Origin: Acidimicrobiales bacterium
GTDB taxonomy: Bacteria; Actinomycetota; Acidimicrobiia; Acidimicrobiales; MedAcidi-G1
Assembly (NCBI GenBank): GCA_022452145.1
Contig: JAKURY010000002.1
Coordinates: 124,001-188,000, forward strand
Direction of reading: 5' to 3'
DNA: 64,000 nt
Every line of letters begins with the position of its first letter. The first letter of the stretch is position 1. The notes under the pieces were generated by a model. That model worked only from the letters and a program-made list of their open reading frames with translations, searched no databases and had not been told where the DNA came from. The translations under genes were made by a program, and so were the position numbers. Shown here one piece after another: positions 21,716-54,168 of the stretch.

Positions 21716-21718
21716 GCC

Positions 21719-21780
21719 GGAGCGCCGACTCCGGTCGCCTCAGCGTGCCCGGATGGTCAGCTGTTCGCGGTTTGTGATGC
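21719..21780. repeat. Tandem repeat copy 1 (62 bp)
   Basis: This copy matches 21781-21842 base for base except one C/G change and abuts it directly. It carries a second, detached copy of the last 13 codons and stop of the Crp-type gene, so it arose by tandem duplication across that gene's 3' end. Confidence 0.95.
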
Positions 21781-21842
21781 GGAGCGCCGACTCCGGTCGG
21801 CTCAGCGTGCCCGGATGGTCAGCTGTTCGCGGTTTGTGATGC
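21781..21842. repeat. Tandem repeat copy 2 (62 bp), containing the true 3' end of the Crp-type gene
   Basis: This copy contains the minus-strand codons for ITNREQLTIRAR and the stop at 21802-21804, plus 21 bp downstream. Because the unit lies at the end of the gene, the reading frame is not damaged by the duplication. Confidence 0.95.
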
Positions 21843-22461
21843 GGTAGGTCCGGTCGATCTGTTCGATCCAGCCCAGGCGGATGAACGAGGCGATCGCCTT
21901 GTTGACCCGCTCCCGTGAGGCGCCGACCATGCCCGCCAACTCCTCCTGGGTGATGGGCAGCGAGAACTCCTCCTCCTCGCCGGCCAGGTCCAGGAGCCGC
22001 TTGGCCGTCCGGCCGGTCACGTCCAGGAACACCGAGTCGGCCAGGGCCGCGTCCATGGTGCGGAGGCGACCGGTCAGCATGGCCACCACACGCCAGAGCA
22101 GGGTGGGGTCGTCCTGGTACAGGCTGCGTACCGGGCCGTAGGGCACCGCTGTGACGACCGACGACTCGAGTGCCCTGGCCTCGGCCGATCGGCCCCGGCC
22201 GTCGAACAGGCCCATCTCCCCGAACAGGTCGCCCTCCTCCATGAGGGCCACCATCGACTCCCGGCCGTCTATCGACTTGTTGGCGATGGCGATGCGGCCC
22301 GACACGACCACGAACAGCTCGTCGGGATCCTCGCCCTCCCTGAATAGCACGTCGCCACGGCGCAATTCGAGGTCCTGCCCGGCTTCGACGACCTTGGCCA
22401 GGGCGTCGTCACCCAGCCCGGCGAACAGGATGGTCTCGCTCAAGAGTGTGGTGTCCGGCAT
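21802..22461 (-). CDS. Crp/Fnr family transcriptional regulator
   Basis: The 219-aa regulator has an N-terminal cyclic-nucleotide-binding barrel (LELRRGDVLFREGEDPDELFVVVSGRIAI, GDLFGEMGLFDGRGRSAEARA), a dimerisation helix and a C-terminal winged helix-turn-helix (ITQEELAGMVGASRERVNKAIASFIRLGWIE). GEMGLFD...RSAEARA matches the phosphate-binding cassette of cAMP-responsive members such as GlxR and mycobacterial Crp, so cAMP binding is likely. No iron-sulfur cysteines are seen, which argues against an Fnr-type sensor. It is divergent from ispD, and its 3' end is duplicated. Confidence 0.88.
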   Translation of the reverse strand: MPDTTLLSETILFAGLGDDALAKVVEAGQDLELRRGDVLFREGEDPDELFVVVSGRIAIANKSIDGRESMVALMEEGDLFGEMGLFDGRGRSAEARALESSVVTAVPYGPVRSLYQDDPTLLWRVVAMLTGRLRTMDAALADSVFLDVTGRTAKRLLDLAGEEEEFSLPITQEELAGMVGASRERVNKAIASFIRLGWIEQIDRTYRITNREQLTIRAR

Positions 22462-43272: not shown

Positions 43273-44433
43273 ATGTCGCAGGGACCGGTGTCGCAGAAGC
43301 AGGTGGCTGAACGTTCGTTCACGGTGGTGGAGGACGAGCTCTGCTCGCTCTCCCAGTGGATGTACGAGAACCCCGAGTTGGGCTTCGAGGAGTTCGAGGC
43401 GTCAGAGCGCCTCAGTTCGTTTCTGTCCCGACAGGGCTTCGACGTCACCTATCCGAGCCATGGCCTGGACACTGCCTTCGAGGCAACGGTGGGAACCAGC
43501 GGCCCCCGCGTGGTCATCTGCTGCGAGTACGACGCCCTGCCCGGGATCGGACATGCCTGTGGGCACAACATCATCGCTACCGCCGCGGCGGGGGCCGGGG
43601 TGGCGATGGCTGGCCTGGCCGAGGACCTGGGGATCCGGGTGACCGTCCTCGGTACGCCGGCCGAGGAGGGCGGCGGGGGGAAGGTCGAGTTGATCAACGC
43701 AGGCGCCTTCGAGGACGCCGTGGCGTCGATGATGGTGCACCCGGGTCCGTTCGACCAGTTGGACCCCTCGTTCCAGGCCTGTCAGCACTACGACGTTGAG
43801 TTCTTCGGCAAGGAGTCGCACGCGGCGTTCGCTCCGGAGGAGGGGATCAACGCCCTGGACGCGTTCGTGCAGGCATACATGAACGTCGCCACGCTTCGTC
43901 AGGCCATGCTCTCCGGTGACCGTGTGCACTGCATCATCAGCCACGGTGGTGACGCGGCGAACATCATCCCGGCCTACACGAAGTCGGTCTGGCTGATCCG
44001 CTCGGCCAGCGTCGAGCGCCTGGCGGAGCTGGTCCCGAAGGTGAGGGCCTGCTTCGAGGGTGCGGCCACGGCCACCGGCTGCCGCCTCGGCTGGGAGGCC
44101 AAGGACCATCCCTACGAGAACATGGTCAACCATCCGGTCATCACCGACCTCTACAGGGCGAACTCGGTGGCGATGGACCGCCCGATGCCCACCGAGGAGG
44201 AGACCGGGTTCAGCGGTGGCTCGTCCGACATGGGCAACGTCAGCCAGGTCGTTCCCTCCATCCACCCGATGCTGGGCATCGAGTCAGGCGATGCCGTCAA
44301 CCACCAGGTGGAGTTCGCCGACCACACCGTCACGGCCGACGGCATGAAGGCCATCAGGGACGGCGCCCTGTCCATGGCCTACACCATCATCGACATGGCC
44401 GACCAGGATGTCTGGGACAGACTCCGGGGATGA
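43273..44433 (+). CDS. M20 family amidohydrolase (AbgB-like)
   Basis: This 386-aa metal-dependent amidohydrolase has the binuclear-site motifs CEYDALPGIGHACGHN near residue 83 and LGTPAEEGGGGKVEL, a dimerisation insert starting VEFFGKESHAAFAPEEG, and late GGSSDMGNVSQVVP. These resemble the AbgB/AbgA branch that cleaves p-aminobenzoyl-glutamate or related N-acyl amino acids. The substrate is not certain. The gene lies 11 bp before an OppD-like ATPase, so an imported peptide-like compound may be its substrate. Confidence 0.85.
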   Translation: MSQGPVSQKQVAERSFTVVEDELCSLSQWMYENPELGFEEFEASERLSSFLSRQGFDVTYPSHGLDTAFEATVGTSGPRVVICCEYDALPGIGHACGHNIIATAAAGAGVAMAGLAEDLGIRVTVLGTPAEEGGGGKVELINAGAFEDAVASMMVHPGPFDQLDPSFQACQHYDVEFFGKESHAAFAPEEGINALDAFVQAYMNVATLRQAMLSGDRVHCIISHGGDAANIIPAYTKSVWLIRSASVERLAELVPKVRACFEGAATATGCRLGWEAKDHPYENMVNHPVITDLYRANSVAMDRPMPTEEETGFSGGSSDMGNVSQVVPSIHPMLGIESGDAVNHQVEFADHTVTADGMKAIRDGALSMAYTIIDMADQDVWDRLRG

Positions 44434-46611: not shown

Positions 46612-48573
46612 GTGACCAGGAAACGAATGAGGTTCATTGCGGTGCTGGCTGCGCTAGCGCTCGTCGTGTCCGCGTGTGGCAGCGACGACGCTGACGACGC
46701 GGCTCCGGCTACCACGGCCGCTCCGGCTACGACGGCTGCTCCGGCTACCACGGCGGCACCGGCTGCTACCGAGGCTCCCGCTGCGGCGGATTCGTCTGAT
46801 CCGATCAAGTTGCCGATCCACAACTGGTCGTCCCAGATCGCCGGCGTTTACGCCGTTGGTGCGATCCTGGAAGCCACTGGCAACTCGGTCGAGTACATCT
46901 CGGCTGACTCCACGCTCGTTTACACGTCAATGTGTGAGGGCGACATGGACCTCGTTCATGAGGTCTGGGAGGGCGCCTTCGGCGTTGCCTTCATGGAGCA
47001 GGTCGACGCTGGCTGTGTGATCGATGCGGCCACGCACGACGCCAAGACCCGTGAAGAGTGGTGGTACCCGTCCTACGTTGAGGACGTGTGCCCGGGTCTC
47101 CCGGACTGGGAGGCGCTCAACGGCTGCGCTTCGATGTTCGCCACGCCCGATTCGGGTGGCAAGGGCCGCTTCCTTGGTGGTCCGGTGGACTGGTTGAAGG
47201 GTGACCAGGAGCGTGTCGAGGGTCTCGAGATGGACTTCATTGTCGAGAACGCCGGTACGGCTGGTGCCCTGTGGGCAGCCCTGGAGGCAGCTTCTGCCAA
47301 CCAGGAGCCGATCGTGTTGTTCAACTGGACCCCGAACTTCATCGAGGCCATGTACGACGGCAAGTTCATCGAGTTCCCGACGTTTGCTGACGAGTGCCGG
47401 ACCGATGCCTCATGGGGCCTCAACCCGGAGACGACTCACGACTGTGGCAACCCGAAGGACGGCTACCTCAAGCTCGGCGTCTGGTCCGGATTCCCGGACA
47501 AGTGGCCGAACGCGTATGCCGCGGTTCAGAAGATGAACTTCACGAACCTGGACATCGCCCAGTTGGCCATGTACGTCGACATCGACGGCATGGAGCCCGA
47601 GGATGCGGCAGCCTTGTGGCTCGCCGACAACTGCGCCCGCTGGACCGGATGGGCCAGCGCGGATGCCAGCGTCTGCCCGGAGGCTCCCGCTGCGGCGGCG
47701 GATTCGTCTGATGCGATCAAGTTGCCGATCCACAACTGGTCGTCCCAGATCGCCGGCGTTTACGCCGTTGGTGCGATCCTGGAAGCCACTGGCAACTCGG
47801 TCGAGTACATCTCGGCTGACTCCACGCTCGTTTACACGTCAATGTGTGAGGGCGACATGGACCTCGTTCATGAGGTCTGGGAAGGCGCCTTCGGCGTTGC
47901 CTTCATGGAGCAGGTCGACGCTGGCTGTGTGATCGATGCGGCCACGCATGACGCCAAGACCCGTGAGGACTGGTGGTACCCGTCCTACGTTGAGGACGTC
48001 TGCCCGGGTCTGCCGGACTGGGAGGCGCTCAACGACTGCGCTTCGATGTTCGCCACGCCCGATTCGGGTGGCAAGGGCCGCTTCCTTGGTGGCCCGGTGG
48101 ACTGGTTGAAGGGTGACCAGGAGCGTGTCGAGGGTCTCGAGATGGACTTCATTGTCGAGAACGCCGGCACCGCCGGTGCCCTGTGGGCAGCGCTGGATGC
48201 AGCTTCTGCCAACCAGGAACCCGTCGTGATCTTCAACTGGACCCCGAACTTCGTCGAGGCCATGTACGACGGCAAGTTCATCGAGTTCCCGGAGTTCGCC
48301 GACGAGTGTCGGACCGACGCTTCGTGGGGCCTCAACCCCGAGACCACGCACGATTGTGGCAACCCGAAGGACGGGTACCTCAAGCTCGGTGTGTGGTCCG
48401 GCTTCCCGGACAAGTGGCCGAACGCGTACAAGGTCGTCCAGAGGATGAACTTCACCAACCTGGACGTGGCCCAGTTCGCCATGTACGTCGACATCGACGG
48501 CATGGAGCCCGAGGACGCGGCAGCGAAGTGGCTGGCCGACAACGCCGACCGGGTGGACGCCTGGGTCGGCTAG
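46612..48573 (+). CDS. tmoX: ABC transporter substrate-binding lipoprotein with two tandem OpuAC domains (TMAO/betaine type)
   Basis: The 653-aa lipoprotein has a signal with lipobox VSAC (Cys22), an Ala/Pro/Thr linker (about 31-58) and two near-copies of an OpuAC-type domain at about 60-355 and 364-653. Both start DSSD-IKLPIHNWSSQIAGV and carry the same cysteines and aromatic residues. Single-domain relatives bind glycine betaine, choline or TMAO. The order binding protein, ATPase, permease, tmm matches tmoXWV-tmm of marine proteobacteria, so TMAO is the best guess, by context. Codons use more T-ending forms than the neighbours do. GTG at 46612 follows a purine-rich site. Confidence 0.75.
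   Translation: MTRKRMRFIAVLAALALVVSACGSDDADDAAPATTAAPATTAAPATTAAPAATEAPAAADSSDPIKLPIHNWSSQIAGVYAVGAILEATGNSVEYISADSTLVYTSMCEGDMDLVHEVWEGAFGVAFMEQVDAGCVIDAATHDAKTREEWWYPSYVEDVCPGLPDWEALNGCASMFATPDSGGKGRFLGGPVDWLKGDQERVEGLEMDFIVENAGTAGALWAALEAASANQEPIVLFNWTPNFIEAMYDGKFIEFPTFADECRTDASWGLNPETTHDCGNPKDGYLKLGVWSGFPDKWPNAYAAVQKMNFTNLDIAQLAMYVDIDGMEPEDAAALWLADNCARWTGWASADASVCPEAPAAAADSSDAIKLPIHNWSSQIAGVYAVGAILEATGNSVEYISADSTLVYTSMCEGDMDLVHEVWEGAFGVAFMEQVDAGCVIDAATHDAKTREDWWYPSYVEDVCPGLPDWEALNDCASMFATPDSGGKGRFLGGPVDWLKGDQERVEGLEMDFIVENAGTAGALWAALDAASANQEPVVIFNWTPNFVEAMYDGKFIEFPEFADECRTDASWGLNPETTHDCGNPKDGYLKLGVWSGFPDKWPNAYKVVQRMNFTNLDVAQFAMYVDIDGMEPEDAAAKWLADNADRVDAWVG
46702..46773. repeat. 18-bp codon repeats in the lipoprotein linker (4 units)
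   Basis: Three units code APATTA and a fourth, degenerate one codes APAATE. It is a flexible linker between the lipid anchor and the first binding domain, prone to slippage. Confidence 0.85.
46771..47661. repeat. Tandem domain duplication, copy 1
   Basis: This roughly 0.9-kb in-frame unit recurs at 47680. After a 3-bp indel the offset is 912 bp. The first 180 bases or so differ at only a couple of positions, and differences accumulate toward the 3' end. Confidence 0.95.
47680..48570. repeat. Tandem domain duplication, copy 2
   Basis: Copy 2 of the duplicated ligand-binding domain. Most changes relative to copy 1 are synonymous or conservative in the last two-thirds, for example threonine to glutamate in the FADECRT stretch and valine for isoleucine in the NWTPNF stretch. 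Confidence 0.95.
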
Positions 48574-49738: not shown

Positions 49739-52700
49739 ATGACCGATCAGACCACGTCCGAACCCATCGACACCTCCGACGCCGCGTCGGTAGATGGACC
49801 AGCGAAACAACTCTCCGGTCGCCAGAAGGCGACGATCGCCTTAGGACCATTCCTGATCCTGTGGTTCGCCTGGTGGCGGCTCGGGTCACACTCCATCTCC
49901 CGAACCGGCAAGTACGAAGGGGAGTCTGCTGCGCTTGAATGGCTGTACCGGGTTCCGCGGACCTGGACCGTCGACTGGTTCAACTTTGCGGGCCGGGACG
50001 GCTTCGCGAGCGTCAGCTACAAGGCCACGGGGTGGGTGAACATCTGGTTCGACCACCTCCGCTACGAGGAGTTCTTCCAGTTCACCGTGGCGTGGCACCT
50101 CTCCAAGGGACCGTGGCTGTTGGTTCTCCTGGCCTGCCTCGGGGCGACTGGCTGGATGGCCTGGCGCACTCGGAGCAACCGCTGGCTGGCTGCCATCGTG
50201 GCCGTGGCCTGGATGGGCTGGTCCGTCGACCTGTTCGACTTCCTGCACGTTCCCACGACGCCGTGGGTCTACGTCTTCGTGGTGGTCGGCATCGCCTCTG
50301 TAGCCCGAGCCGTGCAGGATCGGACGTTCGAATGGACGGCCGCCGCCACGGCCATCGCCATCGTCGGTTGGGTGACCCTGCAGACCAACGAGGAATCCTT
50401 CAACGTCAAGGCCTTCTTCCGTCAGGTCGCACGATGGCTGGAGTTCCCCCTGGACGTCACCGAGGGACTCCTGATCAGCGGCTACGGGCCCTGGCATCTT
50501 CCCGACATGCCGTGGCTGTTCATCTTCGCCCTCCTCGTCGGTGGAGCGGGCTGGATGGCCTGGCAACGCCGGAGCACCGCGTGGACGATTGCGACCGCGT
50601 TCGTGGGCTGGATGGCCGTGGTGAGCCTCTATGAGCCGTGGCATATTCCCGCCCTGCCGTGGATCGTGATCGCCGGCCTCTTCGGTGTCGTCGGTTGGAA
50701 GCTGGGTGGCTGGCGCCTCGCCCTCCTGTCGGTCGGGTTCATCCTCTACGCCTCCTTCGTTGGTGAACCTGCGGAGCAGGCCGGAGCGGAGACCCGCTGG
50801 GACAAGACGATGATCACGCTGTCCGCTGTCCTGGTGGCCGTTCCGATCGCCGCCCTGCTCGGAGCCGTCATCGGCCTGGTGGCTGCCAAGCGACGTCGGG
50901 TCGAACAGTTCCTGATCCCGATCATGAACCTGACACAGGCCTTCCCGCACTTCACCTTCCTCATCCCGATCGGCGTGTTCATCGGCCTCTCGCACAAGGC
51001 CGGTGTCATCGCCACGATCGCCTATGCCATCCCACCGATGGCCCGGGTGACGATCCTCGGCATCCAGGGGATCTCAAGTGAGGTCATCGAGGCGGGGATC
51101 ATGGGCGGCTGCACACGCCGGCAGATGCTGTGGAAGGTGGAGTTGCCCGCCGCCCGCCAGTCCCTGCTGGTCGGAATCAACCAGGTGGTCATGGAATGCC
51201 TTGCCATGGTGGTCATCGCCTCGTTCGTCGGCACCGCCGGCCTGGGACAGGACCTCCTGTTCCGCCTCACGGGACTCCACATCGGCGCCGGAACTGAGAT
51301 CGGGATCGCCATCGTCGTCATGGCCATCACCCTGGACCGCCTCAGCCAGGGGCTGGGTCGGCTCCAGCCAACCCACTACCCAGAGGGCGCGCCCTTCTGG
51401 AAACGCCACCCGTACCTCCTGGCCTCGGGAGCCGTGATGGTGGGCGGCCTCCTCCTGGCCCAGGCCTGGGATGCGGCCTTCCGCGTACCCAACTCGTGGA
51501 TGCGGGGCCATGAGGGCTTCTGGGAATTCCTCGTGGACAACGGCAAGAGCGACGTGGCGTGGTGGCACCTGTCCGGTGGTCGGTGGCTAGTGCTCTTCCT
51601 GGCCGCCATCGCAGTCGCCGGATGGAGGGCCTGGGACACCCGGCGCTACCGCTGGCTCATCACCGCGGCCGCCCTGGCCTTGGCGGGATGGTCCGTCGAC
51701 CTGTTCGACTTCCTGCACCTGTCCACCAAGCCGTGGATCTACGTCTTCGTGGCGGCCGGCGTCGCCGCCTTGGCGTACGGCTCATCGGTGCGAACCCGGC
51801 TACTGGCCCAGGCCTCCGGGGATGTCGGCTCCCACGGCGAGGCGGCCACCCAAGCCCAACAGTCGCTGCGCTTCACCTGGACGGCGGCCATGACGGTGAT
51901 CGTGACGCTCGGCTGGGTGACCCTCCGAACCATCGACGAGTCCTTCACATTCAACCTCCGCGACTACACCATCACCTTCCGGGACGCCCTCGAGTCCGCG
52001 ATCCTGCTGCCCATGCGCGACGCCTACCTCACCATTCCATGGGTGGGCCTCGTCCTGCTCTTCGGTGTGGTCGGATACTTCATCAACGGTCGCCGACCCG
52101 CCCTGTTGGCCGCAGGCATGATCGCCTTCATCTCCCTCGCCGGGTTCTGGTGGCAGGCCATGTGGAACTTCTACCAGCTGACCTTCGCCGTGTTACTGGC
52201 CATCATCTTCGGTGTTCCGTTCGGGATCTGGGCAGCGACCACGGCGCGACGCAACGCGGTGGTGCAGGTGCTCCTCGACTTCTTCCAGACCTTCCCGTCG
52301 TTCGTCTACCTGTTCCCAGCCATCATGTTCTTCGGCGTCTCCGAAACGGCGATCATCGTCGCCGTGGTCCTCTCCGCATCCGTGCCGGCCATCCGATACA
52401 CGATCTTCGGCATCCAGAACGTGCCGAAGCCGCTGATCGAAGCGTCCACGATGGCTGGCTGCACCCGGCGGCAGACCCTCTGGAAGGTGAAGTTGCCCAT
52501 GGCAGTACCGGAGATCATGCTCGGCATCAACCAGACGATCATGTTCGGCCTCTTCATGGTGATGATCGCCGGACTCATCAAGACCACCGGACTGGCCCGG
52601 GAGCTCATCGAGGCCCAGCCCAACATCGACAGCGGCCGGGCCATAGTCGCCGGCATCGCCGTGGCCTGCATCGGCATGTCAATCGACCTGCTCATCTCCG

Positions 52701-52747
52701 AGTGGTCCGACAAGCGCAAGAAGCAACTCGGCCTGATCGAGGCCTAG
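49739..52747 (+). CDS. tmoV: Double-length ABC permease, ProW/TmoV type
   Basis: The 1002-aa membrane protein contains two tandem permease units. Each has a Trp-rich N-terminal helical region ([21 protein letters not shown] near residue 160, [21 protein letters not shown] near 651) and a binding-protein-dependent transport domain. Those domains carry the EAA loop ([23 protein letters not shown] near 450, [23 protein letters not shown] near 900). One chain could thus supply both transmembrane halves of the importer. ATG at 49739 is 10 bp after the ATPase. The two halves are clearly diverged, unlike the binding-protein copies. I do not know whether this length is normal for TmoV. Confidence 0.82.
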
Positions 52748-52809: not shown

Positions 52810-54168
52810 ATGACCCGCGTCGCCATCATCGGAGCCGGACCCAGCGGCCTGGCCCAGTTGCGGGCCTTCGCCTCGGCGGCGACCGACGGTACCGAGGTCC
52901 CCGAACTCGTCTGCTACGAGAAGCAGGAGGACTGGGGCGGCCTGTGGAACTACACCTGGCGCACCGGGGTCGACGAGTACGGCGAGTCCGTCCACGGCTC
53001 GATGTACAGGTACCTGTGGTCAAACGGTCCGAAGGAGTGCCTGGAGTTCGCCGACTACGGCTTCGAGGAGCACTTCGGGAAGCCCATCGCCTCCTATCCC
53101 CCACGCGAGGTCCTCTGGGACTACATCAAGGGTCGCGTGGAGAAGAGCGACGTGAGGCAGTACATCAGGTTCCGGACCGTGGTCCGCGAGGTCTCCTACG
53201 ACGAACCCACCGAGCTCTTCACCGTCACCAGCCACGACCTCGTGAACGGCCACACCTCGTCCGAGGAGTTCGACTTCGTGGTAGTGGCATCGGGCCACTT
53301 CTCGGTTCCGAACGTGCCGCACTACCCGGGCTTCGAGCGGTTCCTGGGCCGCATCCTCCACGCCCACGACTTCCGCGATGCCGTGGAATTCTCCGGCAAG
53401 GACATCCTCGTTGTGGGAGCTAGCTACTCGGCCGAGGACATCGGCTCCCAGTGCCACAAGTACGGCGCCGGACGCATCTACTGCACATCGCGTGCCGGCA
53501 CGATGGGCTACGACTGGCCGGACAACTGGGAAGAGCTTCCGATCCTGACCCACGTGGACGGCAACACCGTCCACTTCGCCGACGGCCAGACCCGGGACGT
53601 ACACGCCATCATCCTGTGCACCGGCTACCAGCACTTCTTCCCGTTCCTGCCCGACGAGTTGCGCCTTGAGACGAAGAACCGCCTCTGGGCGCCCGGGCTC
53701 TACAAGGGAGTGGTCTGGGAGCGGAACCCAAAGCTCTTCTACTTGGGAATGCAGGACCAGTACTACACGTTCAACATGTTCGACGCTCAGGCCTGGTGGG
53801 CCCGCGATGTGATGCTCGGACGCATCGAGTTGCCGTCGGCTGCCGAGATGGCGGCCGACAGCGCCGGCTGGCTCGAGCGCGAGGAGGCCCTGGAGACCGC
53901 CTACGAGGAGATCGACTTCCAGGGCGACTCCACGCAGGAGCTGGTTGACGCCACCGACTACCCCGACTTCAACATCGGTGAGGTCAACCGGATGTTCAAG
54001 CAGTGGAAGGCCGACAAGAACGCCGACATCATGAACTACCGCGACAAGGGCTTCCAGTCGACGCTCACCGGCACGATGGCACCCGTCCACCACACCCCGT
54101 GGATGGAGGCGATGGACGACTCCATGGCGACCTACCTGCTCGATGAGGCGCCGGAGGGCGGCGGCTGA
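52810..54168 (+). CDS. tmm: Trimethylamine monooxygenase
   Basis: The 452-aa flavin monooxygenase oxidises trimethylamine to TMAO with NADPH and oxygen. The FAD motif [12 protein letters not shown] is at residues 6-17, the FMO signature reads [13 protein letters not shown] near 178 (F-x-G-x-x-x-H), and the NADPH motif [19 protein letters not shown] is near 203. The SYSAEDIG and HAHDFRDA forms are those of bacterial Tmm rather than generic FMOs. ATG at 52810 has GGAG 7 nt upstream. It follows the transporter by 62 bp and is probably co-transcribed. The call is supported by both motifs and locus. Confidence 0.9.

Follow-up and report, generated by a model that had tools for sequence, protein, structure and literature searches.

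ABC import is usually viewed as relying on one binding protein per substrate, or on substrate-binding domains (SBDs) carried by the system's own permease. The closest described relative of the protein analyzed here is TmoX, known from Ruegeria pomeroyi DSS-3 (PDB 4XZ6) and Pelagibacter HTCC1062, which has one domain, is encoded upstream of tmoV and tmoW, and has a TMAO pocket lined by residues W55, W102, F106, E131, W177, F220, and W222 (PMC8918994). Tandem binding domains are found in GlnPQ, in which two complete domains, SBD1 and SBD2, lie in a single chain fused to the permease (PMC8025302), and two binding domains per transporter are also present in OpuA, where a single OpuAC-family domain is covalently attached to each permease chain (PMC11065425). 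Several binding proteins can serve one transporter as well, as is the case for the separate, single-domain DppA1-A5 of Pseudomonas aeruginosa (PMC4206461). In the literature we searched on multi-domain or fused binding lipoproteins and on transport in marine Acidimicrobiia (subscription papers were mostly outside its scope), the precedents were of the GlnPQ and OpuA type only, and no description of lipoproteins uniting several binding-protein superfamilies was found.

We analyzed a window of 64,000 nucleotides from the metagenome-assembled genome (MAG) of an Acidimicrobiales bacterium (contig JAKURY010000002.1), in which one lipoprotein gene encodes two OpuAC domains, D1 and D2. Unlike in TmoX, there are two domains instead of one, and the first is shared with other operons. 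The arrangement in one chain recalls GlnPQ, but the domains lie on a lipoprotein separate from the permease (gene at 49739-52747), and the modules of such proteins may derive from different superfamilies; heterologous modules are absent from OpuA. The features referred to below are the following:

43273..44433, + strand: M20 amidohydrolase, first gene of an opp-type operon, syntenic with loci L195, L196, and L199
44445..46494, + strand: OppD and OppF ATPases, followed in relatives by an SBP_bac_5 fusion and then OppB-OppC
46612..48573, + strand: tandem OpuAC lipoprotein gene, one open reading frame (ORF) of 653 codons with two Pfam OpuAC matches
46612..46677, + strand: signal peptide and lipobox VSA-C, read from the sequence, with the Cys codon at 46675-46677
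46678..46791, + strand: low-complexity Ala/Pro/Thr linker, (ATTAAP)n, read from the sequence
46792..47652, + strand: D1, internal-type OpuAC module with a TMAO pocket, from alignment and pocket residues
46802..46970 (D1), + strand: 169-nt exact repeat of 47714..47882 (D2), the sole repeat of at least 77 nt in the gene
47653..47703, + strand: inter-domain linker 3' of the NCARWTGW motif (...ADASVCPEAPAAAAD), a junction type matching loci L028, L105, and L099
47698..47774, + strand: 77 nt shared exactly with the end of contig C20 from the same genome, where another gene enters the module
47704..48570, + strand: D2, terminal-type OpuAC (TmoX) with C-terminal NADRVDAWVG, matching 4XZ6 and 99.6% identical to the D2 of L028
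48718..49728, + strand: TmoV-like ATPase of the ProV family (TIGR01186, 328.9 bits, cut-off 326.6)
49739..52747, + strand: TmoW-like double permease, 1002 aa, with two BPD_transp_1 domains
52810..54168, + strand: Tmm-like flavin monooxygenase (PF00743)

The frame ending at 48573 is free of stops from 46504 on, and the GTG at 46612, behind a GGAG, is the likely start codon. The original prediction had placed the feature at 46771-48573, an interval that contains both domains but leaves the signal peptide, and the greater part of the first linker, outside. A lipobox of the same type was present in 41 of the 41 leaders compared, and comparable linkers occur in other module lipoproteins, with approximately 78-91% DNA identity among contigs of the window's own genome (G000). 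The Pfam search returned the two OpuAC matches with E=9.5e-81 and gave no match in the ORF to a transmembrane permease domain. D1 and D2 align without gaps at an offset of 912 nt, and an AlphaFold2 model (mean pLDDT 82) has both of them folded and complete, which bears out, for the given sequence, the claim that one lipoprotein holds two OpuAC domains.

Both domains align with 4XZ6 from end to end (D2 with E=5.2e-106, the next-best structure reaching 5.7e-10), and the seven pocket residues are intact in both D1 and D2. Characterized TmoX proteins do have one domain, as had been stated, and so do all the proteobacterial relatives found; the assembled ORF departs from this single-domain form (about 310-360 aa). 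The Tmm-like protein matched structures 6kbw, a trimethylamine monooxygenase, and 5gsn with E-values of 3.6e-181 and 2.7e-197, respectively, and the ATPase, doubled permease, and Tmm-like genes 3' of the tandem gene read as the layout of a tmo locus. By fold, pocket, and operon, the tandem protein can be classed as TmoX-type, with TMAO as its predicted ligand. We also considered the doubled TmoW as an oddity of the locus and dropped it, as proteobacterial tmo loci carry a doubled permease too, of about 660-740 aa. The one in the window is some 300 aa longer than these relatives, and its gene contains a 77% identical internal repeat (50092-50296 and 51562-51766). In a record of Piscirickettsia salmonis (L064:6899-8835), two single-domain TmoX-like genes are neighbors, that is, the tandem exists there as separate genes.

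OpuAC modules were surveyed in 17 genomes of the window's genus plus sister genera, the own genome being read in the stretches around matches. Judged from these comparisons of sequence, D1 is a shared N-terminal module: several different operons use it, and it is found fused to domains of other binding-protein superfamilies. Within the genus, near-identical modules of four kinds, namely OpuAC, Peripla_BP_6, TauA-like (so labeled from a match to the taurine-binding protein 6ssy, E=4e-19), and BMP+SBP_bac_3, are set before unrelated C-terminal binding domains. Behind leaders other than that of the window, the OpuAC module is fused with SBP_bac_5 in a DppA-like fusion (L107) and with Peripla_BP_6 (L103, L029), is C-terminal to BMP+SBP_bac_3 (L096, L098) and to TauA-like + Peripla_BP_6 (L101), and stands twice ahead of Peripla_BP_6 in a sister genus (L097). 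The BMP+SBP_bac_3 combination occurs in ten genomes, and OpuAC-OpuAC junctions in seven assemblies. A second set is built on a Peripla_BP_6 module, BP6a, which is fused to SBP_bac_5, NMT1, and a PF00144 beta-lactamase-family domain; its junction with SBP5 is conserved and alignable across six genomes of two genera, and BP6a tandems (Peripla_BP_6 + Peripla_BP_6) occur as lipoproteins in a different family within the order (L249:3242-5884, L250:3828-6554). The longest case is a closed lipoprotein ORF of 1471 aa in a sister genus (L246:1637-6049, on G029:C34), which unites Peripla_BP_6, OpuAC, Bmp, and Phosphonate-bd domains and lies upstream of genes for an ABC ATPase and a permease. Where checked, the terminal domain fits the next transporter: SBP5 precedes OppB/OppC, Peripla_BP_6 a LivF-like ATPase, and Phosphonate-bd its ATPase and permease. 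Every OpuAC copy that extends over the seven residues of the TMAO pocket has them intact, fusions to other binding proteins included, and dN/dS is about 0.02-0.19 for most close module copies. In a module tree, the grouping of fully assembled copies follows the fusion partner in part, and not the genome, a biased test in that near-identical copies fail assembly. A scan of IMG/VR with the junction peptide found no relatives. The locus L029 (PBOU01000064.1), whose OpuAC + Peripla_BP_6 lipoprotein is syntenic with Acidimicrobiales loci, bears a Planctomycetaceae label that is probably wrong. The Peripla_BP_6 module with the PF00144 (serine hydrolase) domain was seen in three species (L192:5418-8087, L198:4183-7173, L206:6066-8579).

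Modules of this kind also bear on how far the assemblies can be trusted. In the own genome, 6 of the 8 copies of shared modules are located at the end of a contig (a rough 1-kb model gives p=2e-7), and the contig-end overlaps are exactly 77 nt wherever the partner contig is present. In other MAGs the overlaps measure 77 nt (G002), 55 nt (G003, four ends), 119 and 132 nt (G011), and 102 nt (G001), lengths that would correspond to the assemblers' k-mer sizes, with k = 77 in the window's MAG. The contigs of five MAGs thus break inside modules with exact overlaps to another place, and therefore identical module copies exist within those genomes. Fusions whose unique flanks show two-sided synteny between independent MAGs can be taken as secure, and so can the BP6a-SBP5 junction; examples are M20-OppD-OppF-(TauA-like+SBP5)-OppB-OppC in G002, G003, and G014 and (TauA-like+BP6b)-LivF in G001 and G013. 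Long-range linkage through near-identical modules in short-read MAGs, the window included, is unsafe, so transporter counts and operon structures of the lineage are unreliable at genes whose modules break or may mis-join the assembly.

This has a direct consequence for the window. The own-genome OppB-OppC genes sit on contig C26, whose end carries just the 3'-terminal 26 codons of the orthologous SBP5 (G000:C26:22190-23463 runs from the OppB gene to a contig end within the tail of the SBP_bac_5 gene), and no SBP_bac_5 domain was found in the window's MAG. By synteny, this suggests that the 5' half of the locus (M20-OppD-OppF-leader-OpuAC) belongs in one operon with the C26 half (SBP5 tail-OppB-OppC), so that the join to tmoV-tmoW may be chimeric. 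In that event, leader and D1 would come from an opp-type OpuAC + SBP_bac_5 protein, the assembler would have crossed over in OpuAC, and tmoX would lie elsewhere with a leader of its own. The gene order in G002, G003, and G014 argues for this, as does the similar case of G003:C66, where the upstream genes and leader of an apparent single-domain TmoX belong, in G001 and G013, to a locus of Liv type; moreover, the 169-nt repeat is longer than the inferred k. Nevertheless, it is the single repeat in the gene to exceed k and could be spanned by read pairs, a second exit from D1 should have broken the contig there while the contig is unbroken, and the order D1 end-linker-D2-tmoV recurs in L028, L105, and L099, which back the short-range junction. 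We consider a chimeric contig a serious possibility, if a somewhat doubtful one. Either module recombination truly rearranges operons or assemblers crossed over within modules, and whether the join, with its two copies, is correct as assembled is about evenly balanced. Locus L028 (JAKUSA010000007.1, G020:C170), whose contig begins within D1, matches the window at 99.6% identity across 6.5 kb; its MAG is assigned to another genus, and it is probably mis-binned.

The reading toward which we lean, by a little, is a TmoX-type TMAO-binding lipoprotein with an extra N-terminal TMAO module, drawn from a set of shared modules found ahead of unrelated lipoproteins in this genus and in sister genera. 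At the level of sequence it is established that the modules are fused, keep their pockets, and evolve under purifying selection, and that the C-terminal domain matches the transporter encoded downstream; with pockets kept under such selection, the modules probably retain ligand binding. The C-terminal domain would dock on the permease of its own operon, and the N-terminal modules would raise the number of capture sites per lipid anchor, possibly passing ligand in trans to their own transporters encoded elsewhere; in the window, D1 and D2 may both supply TmoW. Homologous recombination between modules and between Ala/Pro/Thr linkers could spread the modules and keep the copies alike. The window's MAG has 12 BPD_transp_2 permease domains, the permease type of Liv and BMP systems. 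As assembled, the doubled TMAO-binding protein is one case of a habit of these marine Acidimicrobiales, that of placing two to four different nutrient-binding domains on one membrane-anchored protein and of using near-identical domains again in a number of transport operons. More tentatively, and stopping just short of a preference, we propose that interchangeable modules are a genome-wide property of these marine Acidimicrobiales: a few near-identical domains would be copied ahead of the binding proteins of many ABC operons and homogenized by recombination, with two to four sites of differing specificity per anchor and operons that share capture. If true, up to four superfamilies per lipoprotein and a reused module would amount to a different organization of nutrient capture in oligotrophic seawater, and would raise the questions of whether a single lipoprotein serves several transporters and whether tandem capture gains affinity or flux.

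The shared module ahead of a beta-lactamase-family domain is a misfit with a role in transport only, and is among the points that would speak for the modules having arisen incidentally when repetitive linkers recombined, and being tolerated without benefit. The linkers are indeed similar repeats at the DNA level, and module partners differ between species. However, fused copies keep intact pockets and a low dN/dS, and several fusions are conserved between species or genera, so we regard this explanation as unlikely.

D1 and D2 are identical at 803 of 870 aligned nt (93% DNA identity), and the original prediction of near-identical first 180 bases followed by third-position differences was accurate: 178 of the first 180 nt are identical, against 48-55 in each 60 nt toward the 3' end, and 41 of the 67 differences fall on third codon positions. 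At fourfold sites, 0/48 differ in codons 1-96 and 23/85 beyond (Fisher p=1.7e-5). From 5' to 3', dS by thirds is 0.048, 0.154, and 0.579, a climb of about twelvefold, while dN/dS holds at 0.15-0.19 in all thirds. The 3' end of D1 clusters with module ends of internal type from other species (NCARWTGW...CPEAP) and that of D2 with terminal TmoX ends (DRV.AWVG); unlike these type-specific ends, the 5' part of the domain is homogenized. Since the 3' ends sort by internal and terminal type across species, the duplication behind D1 and D2 predates the species, and the original prediction was right that the gradient does not reflect one recent event. The 5' near-identity points to a recent conversion of the 5' part or to assembler collapse, and both stand because the 169-nt stretch is longer than the inferred k of 77 and three D2 differences between L028, a contig of the same species from an ALOHA MAG, and the window fall inside it. 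A plain recent tandem duplication of tmoX, limited to this locus, would account for the overall identity of 93%, but is very improbable given the separation of the two types of 3' ends across species, the 3'-end dS of 0.58, and relatives that carry the module in other operons too. Uneven selection along the domain, which the original prediction had offered as an option, is scarcely credible, as selection would leave dS unchanged whereas dS itself shifts at constant dN/dS, and D2 compared with the G003 copy has no such gradient at fourfold sites.

Elsewhere in the window, a 65-nt unit is present in two tandem copies, 98% identical, at 21718-21844.
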